From: Hoeflea algicola
Lineage (GTDB): Bacteria; Pseudomonadota; Alphaproteobacteria; Rhizobiales; Rhizobiaceae
Length of the DNA stretch: 64,000 bases
Direction of reading: 5' to 3'
NCBI RefSeq assembly: GCF_026619415.1
Contig: NZ_JAOVZR010000001.1
Coordinates: 1,798,001-1,862,000, forward strand
Shown: in pieces, positions 3,583-13,324 of the stretch
Layout of the letters: each line of letters begins with the position of its first letter
Numbering within the stretch: position 1 is the first letter of the stretch
Position numbers and translations under genes: made by a program
The notes under the pieces: generated by a model
Told to the model about the DNA's origin: nothing
Seen by the model: only the letters and a program-made list of their open reading frames with translations
The model's database searches: none

Positions 3583-4537
3583 GCCGCATCGGGAATTGGT
3601 GAGCACCGGGCGCTGAAGCGCGGGGGCAATCAGCTTTCGGGTGGAGGATCATCCGGCGCGGACCTGTGTCCGGTTCCGGCGCGAAAACTGCCCGTTCCCT
3701 GCGGGCCTCTCGCCGCGCCGCCGCGTCTCCGTTTACGCTTCTATACAGGCCAGACAGCCGGAAACGCACCCGCGCGAAAAAGTTCACCGGGGTGTGGCCA
3801 TGACATCAGTCCGGAGGGCCGCACACGGGCAGTGCCTCAAAACAAGTGTAGTAGGGTGGCGCTGAGCGCGCGCGGCCCGAAACTCGCCGGCTGCTGTCCG
3901 GCATCCGACAGGCGCTGGCCTGCTTCCCGCGAGGCCCGGCTTCCTCACCGGCCTCCCGCCCGGGTTGCCCCGGCCGCGATCCGGACAGACCGCGGGAGAT
4001 GCTTTTGGCGCGTGTTCCGGCACGAACCCCGGTCAGGCTGTGAGTGATGCGTGTCCGCTTGGCCGAGTGAAATCACCCGCGCCTGGGCCCGCATCCAGCC
4101 CGGCCGTGTCCGCCACAGGCCCGGCCCGGTTCTCCGCTCCCCACCCGCCGTGCGGCAGGCAAAAGCGCAAATTCCGGCCCGGTGGCTGGCGCGCGCCGCG
4201 CCGTTTTCGGGCGCGGGCTGCCAGCGGAACCACGATGGCCACCGCCTCCCCTGACCCGACGCCCTACGCTGGGACGCCCTGCCAGAGGCATTCCCTCCCG
4301 CCTGGCTCGAAACGCTCGCGATCCATCCGGCAGCGGAAGTGCCGGGGAGTATGGCATGGGAGAAATGGGTGTGGAAAATGTTTGGTGGGAGGCAGATCGC
4401 AGTTGCTTGTTTGGCAATTAGAGAGCGCCGTATTTTTCAGTGGCGCAATTTTTACGTGTGCATTAAGATCGGCAAAATTATATCATTCGGATTTTGTATC
4501 CTGATCGATCCACCATTAAATACAGGTGCCATCGCAT
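3583..4537. other. GC-rich gene-free stretch left of the island
   Basis: About 950 bases without a believable gene. Several open frames cross it but all are Arg/Pro/Gly/Ala-rich and lack ribosome sites, as expected from chance frames in GC-rich DNA. I looked for tRNA, 4.5S RNA, tmRNA and RNase P consensus blocks on both strands and saw none. Composition changes sharply near 4370-4450 from very GC-rich to AT-rich, marking the left edge of the next two genes. At 4425-4446 GCGCC and GGCGC arms with a 12-base loop precede AATTTTTA, a possible weak terminator just before the AT-rich promoter region. Confidence 0.5.
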
Positions 4538-5101
4538 ATGATTCCAGAATGGAACATGGAGGGTAATCTTCCGCCAATTTGGCCTGAAGAAGACGGAACG
4601 AGCAACAACCGTTCACCTTACCCTGCACGCATAATTGAAATTGTCGATCAATTCGCAACGTCAATCGAGCGCAGAAACATCCTCGAAGGCCTATTGCGCT
4701 TTCGTCAAGAACTATATGGGGCCGGCGTCCTACATGGTTTCCAGTGGTTGGATGGAAGCTTTATGGAGGACGTTGAGACGCATCAATCTCGTTCCCCAAA
4801 TGACATTGACGTGATAACATACTTTCACCTCCCAGAGGGGGAAACTCAGGCCACGCTTTATGAAAAAATCCCACACATATTCAACAATGACGAGGTGAGG
4901 GCGAGGTTTAGAGTCGACTCATATTTTGAAATTCTAGGGGAGGCGTTAGTCGAGCGTCGGGTCAGGCAAGTTTCCTATTAGTATAGTATGTGGTCCCATA
5001 AGCGAAACCAACGTTGGAAAGGCTTCGTGCAGACAAAACTTGATCCTGCGGCCGACACAGCAGCACGATCGGCACTCGAAGATTTGATGGTCGAGGCATG
5101 A
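4538..5101 (+). pseudogene. DUF6932-like nucleotidyltransferase-fold protein, interrupted by amber codon
   Basis: The frame starting MIPEWNMEGNLPP matches the N-terminal signature of DUF6932 proteins. FQWLDGSFMEDVE followed by PNDIDVITYF gives the GS...DxD pattern of the nucleotidyltransferase fold. The frame stops at TAG (4979-4981) after VRQVSY, but the same frame continues with YSMWSHKRNQRWKGFVQ and on to a TGA at 5099-5101, which is the tail expected for the family. The amber therefore sits where a Trp (TGG) would fit. The extended frame ends in an ATGA overlap with the next gene, which also argues that this is the original length (187 codons plus stop). Codons are AT-richer than in neighbouring chromosomal genes. 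The ATG at 4538 is chosen over GTG at 4526 because MIPE is the family start. If the amber is real, a shortened protein of 147 residues is made. Confidence 0.75.
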
Positions 5102-6063
5102 AACATGATCAGCAACGCCTCCTTTCCGAAATCAAAGAACTAAACGAAATTCTTGAACTGATCCCGGAACATAACCTGATTGAACGCTCGGGGTTCGAAG
5201 CACGACTGAAGCGCGCCTATACAGCACTCGAAACAATTCACGACTATGTAGAGCCGGAGCGCACTCGACTTACTTTCAGAGGCTCCCCGGTCATTGAAAG
5301 TCGTAGCATATCAGCAGATTTTGGCACTAAAGCTTCAGCCCACTTCGCAGAAGCCTTTGCTGCCATCATCGCTGGAATGCGCGACAAATTGCGTTATATG
5401 GGGCCTATACCAGACAAAGCGCGAAACGAACTCGCCATTACAGGAATCGCAACCGGTTCTTTTGGCTTCGAGTTCGAGCTCCCCAACCTCGACCCCAATC
5501 TATTTTCAGAATCCGGCGGTGCCGAGGAAGCATTGAAGATGCTTCTCGATATTCTTGAAAAATCGGCACTGGGGACTGACGATGAAGTCACAGACATCGT
5601 GCATGCCGTGCACCCCCGCGCAATTAAAAAGGTCGTGGAGTTCTTAGATTTCATGTGGAAAAGAGACGCTTGGTGCGGCCTTGAATTCAAAAATCACTTT
5701 TTTCGTTACGCCGGTGCCGAACAGGTTCAAGCAGCAAAAGAACGTTTAAGTGAAGGCAACATAAAACACACTACTGAACACTTTAAAGGTGCTTTCGAAG
5801 GAAGCCTCCCAAAACCGCGTACTTTTCAGTTCCAGCCGATCGATGATGATCAACCGATAATCGGGAGGTTTGATGCAAGCATTGATCCACATGCATTAAA
5901 TAGGGACTGGCTTGAGCAGCCGGTCACCGTTCAGTTTGATGTAGTACAAGTTGGACAGGGACGTCCTCGCTTCACGCTACTTGATCTGACGCATATTAAA
6001 AAAATCAAGGTGATTGAAACTAAAGCTGCGTTGCGGGCCACCCACAATTCGCCCTTGATGTGA
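5098..6063 (+). CDS. Uncharacterised partner of the DUF6932-like protein
   Basis: A 321-residue soluble protein with no signal peptide or membrane segment. The N-terminus (residues 1-50) is a charged, Leu-rich likely coiled coil (QQRLLSEIKELNEILELIPEH). A central block ITGIATGSFGFEFELPN (about 118-134) looks like a conserved core strand-turn motif. The C-terminal about 80 residues (GRFDASIDPHALNRDWLEQPVTVQFDVVQVGQG) read as beta strands, perhaps a small barrel. No catalytic motif was recognised. It overlaps the upstream frame by four bases (ATGA), so the two are translationally coupled and probably act together. I have an impression that such pairs recur in other bacteria. A toxin-antitoxin or defence-type role is only an inference from the two-gene layout, nucleotidyltransferase fold and foreign base composition. 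Confidence 0.7.
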   Translation: MKHDQQRLLSEIKELNEILELIPEHNLIERSGFEARLKRAYTALETIHDYVEPERTRLTFRGSPVIESRSISADFGTKASAHFAEAFAAIIAGMRDKLRYMGPIPDKARNELAITGIATGSFGFEFELPNLDPNLFSESGGAEEALKMLLDILEKSALGTDDEVTDIVHAVHPRAIKKVVEFLDFMWKRDAWCGLEFKNHFFRYAGAEQVQAAKERLSEGNIKHTTEHFKGAFEGSLPKPRTFQFQPIDDDQPIIGRFDASIDPHALNRDWLEQPVTVQFDVVQVGQGRPRFTLLDLTHIKKIKVIETKAALRATHNSPLM

Positions 6064-6262
6064 GCTTGCAGAATGGTTCCTCGGAGGCAGCGACGTCCCT
6101 TCGCTTTTCTCGACCAAGTCCGGGATGGCGGGTCGTCCGGCAGCAGGCCGCATCCGGTTGCGATTACGGCGCGCGTATTAGACATACCATCAACCCCGAG
6201 TTGATATTGGGAGCAGCATGAGCGAGTGTGCCGCGAACGCATCAGGTGTTGGGGAGAGTGCC

Positions 6263-6485: not shown

Positions 6486-6504
6486 CCCCGGATCAAGTCC
6501 GGGG
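6486..6504. repeat. Short intergenic palindrome (CCCCGGA/TCCGGGG)
   Basis: Seven-base arms CCCCGGA and TCCGGGG around TCAAG, inside a ctggacc...gtgac context. This is a very common intergenic repeat unit in alphaproteobacterial genomes; only one copy is seen here. Confidence 0.6.
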
Positions 6505-6620
6505 TGACGGTGGAGGCTGCGGTGTCCACCTCTCCCCTTGTGGCAAAGGATACAAAACACGGGCTTGGACCGGCAGGGCCAAACCGTGGGTTTTGTTGGT
6601 GAGGGGATCGTGAGTCCAAT

Positions 6621-6986: not shown

Positions 6987-9980
<2,994 letters not shown>

Positions 9981-10052
9981 GGCCACAATATGGGCAGAGT
10001 CGATGGCGAAAGAAAGAGGTGGCCGGGGCAAAACGGGAACGAAGGCGTGTGA

Positions 10053-10249: not shown

Positions 10250-13200
10250 ATGGACACGACATTTTCCGCCCCGCTGATCTTTCTCAATGCTGATGGCCTG
10301 ATTTCCGGCTGGAGCGAGGGCGCCGAGCGTCTGCTTGGCTGGAGTGCAGCCGAGGTGATCGGCCAACCCTATGCCAAGGTGTTCGACGATCTCGATTTCT
10401 TCATCGCCGTCGACGGCCCGATGGATCTGGAATGGCTCTCGGTTCCCGCCCCCGACGGCGGCCGGGTGATCGCCATAAGGACCATGAAGACCAAGCAGCT
10501 GCTGGAACGATTCGATCTGACCATGTCCAATTCCGAGATCATCGGAACCTGGAACTGGAACATCGCCGGCGACATGATCAGCGCCGACAGCCGTTTCGCA
10601 AAGGCGTTCGGGCTGGAAGTCGAGCGCGCCCGCGGCGGTGTTCCGCGGCAGGTACTGCTCGACATCATTCACCCGCAGGACCGCGACCGGGTTGCCGCCG
10701 ATCTCGCCCGCGCCGTCGAGGTCGGTGGCAGCTACAATGGCGAATTCCGGATTGTCCGGCCTGACGGGTCGGTTTCCGATGTGGCTGCCAAGGGGCGGCT
10801 GATCGACGGCAAGGGCCGCGCCGCGCCGCGGTTTCCCGGTGTGCTGTTCGACATCACCGCGCGCAAGGCGGCGGAACGCGAGGCGTTTCACCAGCGCGAA
10901 CGCTACCGTAACCTGTTCGAAATTCTCGAAACCGGCTTTTGCGTCATCCGCATGATCTGGAACGAGAGCGGCGAACCGGTCGATTACGAATTCCTCGAGG
11001 TCAACAAGGCCTTCACCAGACACACCGGCATCGAAGATCCCATCGGCAAGTGGATGCGTCGTGATATCGCCCCCGGGCATGAACAGCACTGGTTCGACAT
11101 CTACGGCAAGGTTGCCAAGACCGGCGAGGCCGTCAGTTTCGAGAACCCGGCGGCGGCAATCGGCGACCGCTGGTTCCAGGTTCAGGCGTTCCCGATAGAC
11201 GGTACCGGCTCCGACAATGTCGCCGTGCTGTTTTCCGACACCACCGCCAGCAAGCGCGCCGAGATCGCGCTCAAGACCAGCGAAGAGGAATTCCGGACCC
11301 TGTCGCAATCGATGCTCAACCATGTCTGGACGGCAACGCCGGACGGTCAGATCGACTGGCTCAACGACCGTGTTCTCGACTTCAGCGGCCTGAGCCAGGA
11401 AGATCTGACAGGCGACCGCTGGGGGTCAATTGTCCATCCAGAGGATTTGCCCGCGGCAGCCGCCTCCTGGGCCGACGCGCTGGAACGGCAGGAAACCTAC
11501 CAGGCCGAGTTCCGGGTCAGGCGCCATGACGGCAGCTATCGCTGGCACGTGGTCCGCGCCACGCCGGTCAGGAACGACAATGGCGAAGTTCGCCGCTGGG
11601 TCGGCACCAATACCGACATTGAGCACGCCAAGATGAACGAGTCCGCGCTGGCCGAACTCAACGAAACCCTGGAGCAGCGCATCGAGGACCGCACGCAGCA
11701 ATTGCTGCAGTCGCAGAAGGCGCTGCAGCAATCGCAGAAAATGGAAACCATCGGCAAGCTGACCGGCGGCGTCGCCCATGATTTCAACAATCTGCTGCAG
11801 GTGATCGCCGGCAATCTGCAATTGCTGGGCAAGGACGTGGCCGGCAATACCGGCGCCGAAACCCGCGTCAAGAACGCGCTGGCCGGGGTGCATCGCGGCG
11901 CCAAGCTGGCCAGCCAGCTGCTGGCCTTTGCCCGCCGGCAACCGCTGGAGCCGAAGGTGATCAATATCGGCCGCTTCATCCACGGCATGGACGATCTGCT
12001 GCACCGCTCGATCGGCGAGACCATCGAGATCGAAACGGTCATTGGCAACAGCCTGTGGAACACCCTGGCGGACCCTACCCAGGTCGAAAACGCCATCCTC
12101 AACCTCGCCATCAACGCCCGCGACGCGATGAACGGCGCCGGGCAATTGACCATCGAGGTCGGCAACGCCCGCCTCGATGACACCTACGCCGCCACCCACG
12201 ACGACGTCGACAGCGGCGACTACGTGCTGATCGCGGTTTCCGACACCGGCGCAGGCATGGACCGCGACACCCTGGAACAGGCGTTCGAGCCGTTCTTCTC
12301 GACCAAGGCGGAAGGCAAGGGCACCGGTCTCGGCCTTTCGATGGTCTACGGTTTCGTCAAGCAATCGGGCGGTCACGTCAAGATTTACAGCGAGATTGGC
12401 CATGGCACCACGGTCAAGCTCTATTTGCCGCGCGCGCTTGCAGAGGAAGAGCTGGAAACGCCGCACCAGACAGGCGCTGTGATCGGCGGCACCGAGACCA
12501 TTCTGGTGGTCGAGGACGACGACGAGGTCCGCGCCACCGTGGTGGCGACGCTCAGCGACCTTGGCTACAAGGTATTGACCGCGCGCGACGCCGAAGCCGG
12601 CCTGGCAGTGATCGAGAGCGGCGCCGGGATCGATCTGCTGTTTACCGATGTGGTGATGCCGGGCACGCTCAAGAGCCCGGAAATGGCCAAGCTTGCTACG
12701 ACCCGGCTTCCCGGTCTCGCGGTGCTGTTCACCTCCGGCTACACCGAGAACTCGATCGTTCACGGCGGCAAGCTCGATCCCGGGGTTGAACTGCTGTCCA
12801 AGCCCTACACGCGGGAAGCGCTGGATCACCGGATCCGGCGGGTGATCGACAGCCGAAAGCAGGACACTGCGCCGCAGGACGCAGCACCGCAACAGCCCCA
12901 ACCGGCGAGCGTTGCCGTTGCCCCTGCCCGCAGCGAGTCTTTGGCTGAAACCGGCAAGCTGACCGTACTGCTGGTCGAGGACGAGGCTCTGATTCGCATC
13001 AATACGTGCGACGTGCTGGAAGACATGGGCCACACCGTGATCGAGGCGGGAACCGCCGCCGAAGCACTGTCAGCCACCGCCAGCCAGCAGCAGATCGACA
13101 TTCTGGTGACCGATGTCGGCCTGCCCGACATGCGCGGCGGAGAGCTTGCCCGAAAGGTACGGCAGCTAAAACCCGATGTCGGCATCATCTTTGCCACCGG

Positions 13201-13324
13201 TGACAGCCAGTTGCCCGACGGCGCCGATTCCGACGCCGTGCTGTTGATGAAGCCCTATTCCGACGAAGCCCTGCAAAAGGCAATTGCGCAGGTGCGGCAA
13301 ACCACCGAGGCTGAAACCGGCTGA
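10250..13324 (+). CDS. PAS-containing hybrid sensor histidine kinase with two receiver domains
   Basis: A 1024-residue cytoplasmic hybrid kinase with no membrane segments. Order: about four PAS folds (residues about 5-85, 95-205, 220-340, 345-465), a Gln-rich coiled coil (465-500), a HisKA-type dimerisation helix with phospho-His 510 in [11 protein letters not shown], an HATPase domain with N box ([10 protein letters not shown]), G1 (DTGAGMD) and G2 ([11 protein letters not shown]), then REC1 with Asp 800 ([10 protein letters not shown]) and REC2 with Asp 955 (LVTDVGLPD). The AHDFNNLL type is common in alphaproteobacterial hybrids. Two receivers suggest a phosphorelay, but no phosphotransfer protein or DNA-binding partner lies next to it. 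The signal is unknown; no haem- or flavin-PAS signature was recognised. ATG 10250 follows GAGAG. Confidence 0.9.

Follow-up and report, generated by a model that had tools for sequence, protein, structure and literature searches.

A stretch of 64,000 nt of the Hoeflea algicola genome, which we call the window, contains two adjacent genes in a segment of low GC content. Do they form a true unit, what kind of unit is it, and which of the two genes does the work? A sequence-only reading had seen in them a nucleotidyltransferase coupled to a larger partner, and had presented the pair as a candidate for an undescribed toxin-antitoxin or defence-like system. We have compared both genes with their relatives in chromosomes and viruses.

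Features of the locus

Gene A (plus strand, 4538..4981) starts with ATG at 4538, with an alternative earlier start GTG at 4526, and ends with TAG at 4979–4981. It belongs to Pfam family DUF6932 (E = 1.5e-21) and has the nucleotidyltransferase motifs that had been pointed out before: G-S at 4754–4759 and D-x-D at 4802–4810, to which conservation adds a third Asp at 4916–4918 (all on the plus strand). The TAG is a single in-frame stop that shortens the gene. Beyond it the frame is open (4982..5101, plus strand) up to a TGA at 5099–5101 that overlaps the ATG of gene B, and this open rest encodes a conserved C-terminal block, YSMWSHxR...WKGF. As the stop falls between them, the truncated A keeps its three catalytic acids but is left without the block; it ends 116 nt before B. 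The decay of the first gene had thus been recognised correctly, and this copy is probably inactive because A is truncated. Intact relatives of A exist, for example in Acidocella (L018).

Gene B (plus strand, 5098..6063) is intact and codes for 321 aa, according to its open reading frame and its profile matches. Its start and the end of the open A frame form an ATGA overlap (5098..5101, plus strand), and such overlaps are found throughout the family. The search with Pfam profiles gave no family for B. The stretch GSFGFEF, apparent in the alignment of relatives, lies at 5455..5475 (plus strand; GSFGF corresponds to residues 120–124), and residues 2–19 give a sub-threshold leucine-zipper match, the one hint of the coiled N-terminus that had been suggested. 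The pair is a real unit and does not consist of chance reading frames, as confirmed by 713 relatives of B at E ≤ 1e-3 and 417 relatives of A, for which the query was read through the stop.

The foreign composition of the pair is also borne out. GC content is 48.2% for 4538–6063 versus 61.6% for the whole window; GC3 is 0.50 in A and 0.47 in B, versus 0.85 in the uvrB-like gene and 0.81 in the open reading frame at 10250–13324. The unit had been placed from position 4400 onwards: its start is instead near 4526, inside a foreign low-GC segment of about 4380..6240 (no strand), which is delimited by its GC content and by comparison with two sister genomes in which it is absent (G014, G011). A short repeat in two copies, 85% alike, is found beside the cassette (6112–6131 and 6491–6510); it is perhaps a dispersed intergenic repeat.

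We have compared six sister loci, from ten genomes of the same genus that have the left marker; one of them is cut by the end of a contig. On the right side of the insertion site there is a gene that we take to be uvrB-like (minus strand, 6987..10031), from its reading frame and the sister comparison. The left flank (3850..4378, no strand) has about 70% GC; blocks of it are conserved across five sister species, with a mean column identity of 70%. No clear conserved open reading frame was found in this flank. A structured RNA was also considered for it and rejected: it has no Rfam family and the RNAalifold covariation term, +2.15, gives no support. A search for direct repeats around the insertion, or for a tRNA, gave nothing convincing. 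At the position of the pair G014 and G011 are empty, yet from there to uvrB they have 1.7–2.2 kb more than the window. Three other sisters have different cargo: PDC-M48A/B in G012 (L126 4475–6106), an OLD/GajA-like fragment among transposase-like reading frames in G003 (L124 2831–9089), and in G015 a DUF4747 gene with a second, hydrophobic-looking reading frame (L127 6587–8032), which has no PADLOC match. The site resembles a small hotspot for cargo, part of which is defence-like. The B protein of the window groups with copies from Acidocella and Mesorhizobium (tree support 100/96).

The chances are even that the window locus is a dead remnant without function. This would concern the window copy alone and is compatible with the explanation of the pair that we prefer. 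In its favour, A stops before its conserved C-terminal block and B is present in just 2 of 61 relatives, the window included. Against it, the frame of B is full and intact and its product is 68% identical to that of Acidocella, and the three catalytic acids of A all precede the stop.

Linkage and distribution of the pair

The two families adjoin almost always, so that the co-occurrence on which the sequence-only reading had staked its proposal is found. Among 66 contig loci detected through B, A or a remnant of A is directly upstream in 64; the other two (L055, L061) are cut by the end of the contig. B is present in 12 of the 398 genomes of the phylum, one of them (G129) with a short weak match; G129 (5e-4) and G642 (3e-5), both short matches, are left out of the count. 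In ten of the remaining 11 genomes a DUF6932 gene is directly upstream, and G196 has a C-terminal remnant of A. A further search, in a class of 48 genomes, found no loci beyond those already known. The coupling that had been proposed is also general: the reading frames of A and B overlap in 49 of the 53 chromosomal loci with an intact A, with start codons chosen mechanically.

Viral loci anchored on A show the same arrangement. B immediately follows A in all 59 loci of one set and in 32 of 34 of the other, 91 of 93 in total; the two exceptions are short matches with 33% identity. These 91 loci correspond to 49 and 13 non-redundant B proteins. A search of 50,697 phage records gives no match for the B protein of the window and six for the B of L144 type. 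Of 5426 E. coli genomes, 113 have a match to the L144-type pair, and in 95 of these it covers more than 80% of the length of the pair. Two E. coli prophages (L179 3140–5803 and L271 2307–4970) have an element of the IS3 family between A and B, both of which are annotated as whole.

Partners of A may differ. There are 18 DUF6932 loci in 17 of the 398 genomes: ten have a close B, three a B that is divergent and belongs to the PDC-M63 core type (L129, L144, L145) and three an Xre-ImmA/IrrE protein, identified by family matches in L134 and L135 and by sequence likeness in L130. For two loci (L140, L142) there is no partner in the stretch read. The pairs with Xre-ImmA/IrrE, at L130 1450–3371, L134 130–2035 and L135 1459–3194, represent an alternative partner for the same nucleotidyltransferase family. 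The Xre-ImmA protein of L135 matches PD-lambda-2_B with E = 1e-75; this pair is found beside a reading frame that by eye resembles a phage integrase.

A catalogued pair

The description of the system as new has to be withdrawn. A matches PDC-M63A (1.3e-9) and B matches PDC-M63B (9.3e-7) in PADLOC-DB 2.0.0, in the same gene order (models PDLC04744/45 and PDLC04746–51), therefore the pair is not undescribed; a deletion of PDC-M63AB has even been published. At E ≤ 1 the PDC-M63A model is matched by all 84 relatives of A, and the two best PDC-M63B models by 33 and 27 of the 103 B proteins of the window subfamily. This subfamily is far from the core of the models: the B of the window gives 9e-7 versus 1.5e-154 for the B of L129. 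The database models come without a mechanism. In PHROGs, B belongs to phrog_18731 and A to phrog_9194 (matched by the relatives L018 and L013, the A proteins scanned), neither of which has an assigned function. We found no mention in the literature searched of DUF6932, nor of PDC-M02, a pair weakly related to both A and B. In E. coli NILS69 the deletion of a prophage-borne PDC-M63AB left infection by 10 infecting phages unchanged, according to the available text (PMC12409345); this is the sole knockout study found in the literature searched and, in that text, it reports no effect of PDC-M63. The pair is thus a catalogued but unexplained anti-phage candidate, real and widespread.

Which gene is the enzyme

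The G, S, D and D residues of A are found in 16 of 16 diverse DUF6932 proteins and the third Asp in 15 of them. Five of these 16 proteins have no B partner and still keep the catalytic residues; the site is maintained while the partners change, either B or Xre-ImmA. The alignment of the B superfamily, in which divergent members have 11–16% identity to the B of the window, has a single invariant residue over 12 diverse members, G62, and no invariant polar residue. Since the catalytic residues of A are invariant and B has only one glycine, the enzyme is probably A alone, as judged from these alignments. The GSFGFEFEL core that had been called conserved-looking in B is conserved in part: GSFGF is invariant in 103 close relatives and is lost in divergent members.

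A search for solved relatives by sequence found none for A, and none below E = 0.45 for B. The B proteins match SnoaL in 35 of 103 cases (best 3.3e-4) and VMAP-M14 in nine (best 0.013). One divergent B has a BPL_C match at its C-terminus (9.5e-5), which hints at a small barrel there. We have also considered B as a HEPN partner and found no support for it, in agreement with the sequence-only reading: RX4-6H strings are found in 78 of 103 proteins, but they are scattered, the best aligned column has 24 of 103 and no His column exceeds 74%. A itself matches DUF6932 and gives no match with DUF1814. By sequence its relatives do not group with the CD-NTases either, as only one of 84 A proteins has a weak DncV-like match (E = 0.21).

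Decay of the two genes

A is broken beside an intact B in 14 loci and the reverse is found in two. Ten of the 63 contig loci that could be judged have a broken A: stops in L043 and L054, frameshifts in L052, L060 and L071, and a deletion or a lost end in L038, L041, L046, L049 and L070. The deletions in L041, L049 and L070 are internal; L046 is near the end of its contig, and L055, L061 and L075 were left out of the count because they are at contig ends. Four of 13 loci from the genome survey also have a broken A (the window, G196, G204 and G674); the two sets may overlap in genomes. The reverse cases are L140, with an intact A and no B found, and the viral locus L189, with an intact A and a frameshifted B. 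In the 91 viral loci A is always at full length; besides the frameshifted B of L189, one B is cut by the end of a contig (L016).

The proportion of 14 to two has a binomial probability of 4.6e-5 if weighted by gene length and of 0.002 at 1:1, for cases which are not independent: five of the 14 belong to the window's own branch. Chromosomal loci were mostly found via B and viral loci via A. Given this search bias and the five related cases, we take the decay as moderate evidence only that A is the costly part and that B is safe alone. This polarity argues against a toxic B that A would keep in check.

Five A genes were found with a single in-frame stop, which in every case is TAG (the window, L043, L054, G204 and G674; the last two labelled L138 and L167), at different residues, and the chance that all are TAG is 0.015–0.021. 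We have considered amber recoding of A and rejected it: the stops are at different residues, and other copies are broken by frameshifts and deletions, for which reason plain decay is preferred.

Genomic surroundings

Two surroundings recur. The first one is found in lambdoid phages. In mEpX1, vB_EhrS_59, PhiR30_1 and a prophage of E. coli NGF1 the pair immediately follows cI, and N or kil-gam genes are found farther along. Of the 42 non-redundant viral loci that could be evaluated, 26 have a CI-like repressor on the same strand at 1.5 kb or less upstream, versus nine of 485 control reading frames; for loci of the E. coli type the figures are eight of 11 versus three of 83. Two choices favour these contrasts: the control reading frames are mechanical, and the CI profile derives from six repressors located beside the pair, which makes the comparison partly circular. 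These copies show what takes the place of rexAB in mEpX1 and phages like it. We have seen no Pfam or PDB sequence match that would relate A or B to RexA or RexB, in a library that may lack a RexA chain.

The second one is the type I restriction operon. Among 128 nearest neighbours of the pair, taken from 32 of the 44 loci that extend for 3.5 kb or more to its left and to its right, eight match Methylase_S and six HSDR_N in Pfam. The order hsdS or hsdM, A, B, hsdR on the same strand is found in nine of 40 evaluable chromosomal loci, a figure without a matched chromosomal control, obtained with hsd queries from such loci and with limits of 2.5 kb upstream for hsdS or hsdM and 6 kb downstream for hsdR. 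On one side or on both, 17 of 66 chromosomal loci have an hsd gene, versus none of 88 viral loci. A Pfam search of whole genomes, which covered these 17 loci and G674 with coordinates converted by hand, confirmed Methylase_S upstream and HSDR_N downstream in all nine flanked loci and found both also in L023, L024, L025, L038, L067 and G674; L031, L046 and L058 have HSDR_N downstream only and their contigs end close upstream. In L034 hsdS ends and A begins within one shared ATGA. The copies linked to hsd genes are not one clade on the tree of B, where well-supported branches force at least four changes of label, with a bootstrap that has not settled. The genome of the window has no HSDR_N match in Pfam and its copy is not located in an hsd operon. 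We found no earlier report of this placement, although our full-text searches are a thin basis for this statement.

Two of these loci have additional reading frames. In L057 there is one of 595 aa (7516–9303) between hsdS and A; it is not hsdS itself, as it has no Methylase_S match and hsdS is the preceding reading frame. The G674 locus (L174 4003–14148) contains hsdM, small reading frames, hsdS, A with its TAG, B, more small reading frames and hsdR; two of the small ones resemble PIN-type toxins by eye.

A possible mechanism and its alternatives

The linkage of A and B, their surroundings, the conserved nucleotidyltransferase site, the lack of an aligned HEPN motif and the one-sided decay are the observations to be explained. 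Linkage and surroundings support a unit of the toxin-antitoxin or defence-like kind, as had been anticipated. Our main reading, with a probability of about 0.55, is that the pair is a phage-exclusion unit of abortive-infection, toxin-antitoxin-like type, in which A would be a toxic nucleotidyltransferase effector and B its controller; the binding, the direction of toxicity, the trigger and the target are what we infer. A would be a minimal nucleotidyltransferase that, once set free, halts growth by nucleotide transfer to an essential molecule of the host. By analogy with the MenT toxins its most likely target would be tRNA. B would be a non-catalytic partner that binds A and keeps it silent, and that may sense infection either through a phage component or, in hsd operons, through the loss of the restriction complex. 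Infection would then free A, growth would stop and the phage would not spread. In the window, B may be left as a remnant or as a protection against related A toxins.

Some facts speak against this model. One is the E. coli NILS69 deletion without effect on 10 phages; a possible reason is that the right trigger may be missing from the phage panel. L189 and L140 keep an intact A with a frameshifted B or with no B found, therefore a free A is not always lethal. In PD-lambda-2, as far as the available text describes it, the Xre-peptidase is toxic and the first gene is its antidote (PMC9519451), a polarity opposite to that of a toxic A controlled by B.

A toxic B, with A as an antitoxin that nucleotidylates it in type VII style, is unlikely in our opinion. 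Such an arrangement is suggested by a nucleotidyltransferase adjoining a larger partner, by the action of the antitoxin MntA, described as nucleotidylating its toxin HepT in the available sources, by the toxic second gene of PD-lambda-2, and by the loci in which A is kept: L189, L140 and the viral set, where A is never broken. It does not agree with 14 chromosomal loci in which a broken A, three times with an internal deletion, stands beside an intact B, there being no broken B in those sets; nor with the scattered RX4-6H strings and the lack of any invariant polar residue in B, so that an MNT-HEPN assignment is not supported. If instead A made a nucleotide second messenger or a modified nucleotide on infection, with B as its effector or receptor, as in CBASS, the GS...DxD...D core would fit and the loss of A beside a silent B would be harmless, in line with the observed decay. 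We consider this improbable: A has only about 190 aa and a single weak DncV-like match among its relatives, B has no recognised effector domain, and a free cyclase would not select against the loss of B.

Little credit can be given as well to a regulator outside defence, a pair that modulates the lysis-lysogeny switch or restriction and for which exclusion is secondary or absent. RexA is described as biasing the lambda switch in the RexAB literature consulted (PMC11077077, PMC12894663), and a place beside cI is comparable to it; the position inside hsd operons and the negative knockout also fit. Copies are found, however, in many phyla with no hsd neighbour detected, some of which may be prophages, and the site of the window is shared with other defence-like cargo.

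Within the phage-exclusion reading, the hsd surroundings suggest a more specific idea. PrrC sits in the gap between hsdS and hsdR. It is described, in the available text, as linked to the type I enzyme, silenced by it and activated by a phage anti-restriction peptide (PMC2610378). The pair might likewise be a mobile guard module. In type I operons A would be bound to the restriction complex through B, and anti-restriction proteins of phages would free it to nucleotidylate tRNA or another component of translation; the module would be a counterpart of PrrC that transfers nucleotides where PrrC cleaves. In lambdoid prophages it is presumably co-expressed with cI and would act as a second system of exclusion, located in the rexAB slot. 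This is a doubtful extension. If the hsdS-A-B-hsdR loci were guards, they would represent a further kind of toxin set to watch over type I restriction. With the phage-exclusion reading, a catalogued candidate gains a testable mechanism: which gene would be toxic, which one would control it, and where the trigger might be sought.

Comparison with known systems

The pair shares with lambda RexAB its place, as two genes that immediately follow cI in lambdoid phages, and with PrrC the presence of effector genes between hsdS and hsdR. The available description of PrrC (PMC2610378) is of a single protein in which ABC ATPase motifs are combined with an anticodon nuclease site; here we find instead a nucleotidyltransferase and B. 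The likeness to MenAT lies in the nucleotidyltransferase core, in the organisation as a two-gene unit and in a partner family that changes while the nucleotidyltransferase stays: MenT toxins pair with diverse antitoxins, as stated in the text available (PMC10435456). The nucleotidyltransferase of MenAT is however DUF1814 and that of our pair DUF6932; in our pair its gene comes first and the partner has 300 aa. HEPN-MNT systems (type VII) also have a small nucleotidyltransferase beside a partner, but B lacks the aligned motif of HEPN proteins and the polarity of chromosomal decay is opposite. PD-lambda-2 has a toxin-like gene before an Xre-ImmA protein, a first place which DUF6932 holds in L134, L135 and, by likeness, L130; its first gene is described as HigB-like in the part of the source available (PMC9519451), and the partner in the window is B and not Xre-ImmA. 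The adjacent A and B match the PADLOC models of PDC-M63, and A has the GS, DxD and third acidic residue of the nucleotidyltransferase superfamily. The pair would be a new variant among the nucleotidyltransferase units of toxin-antitoxin or abortive-infection type.
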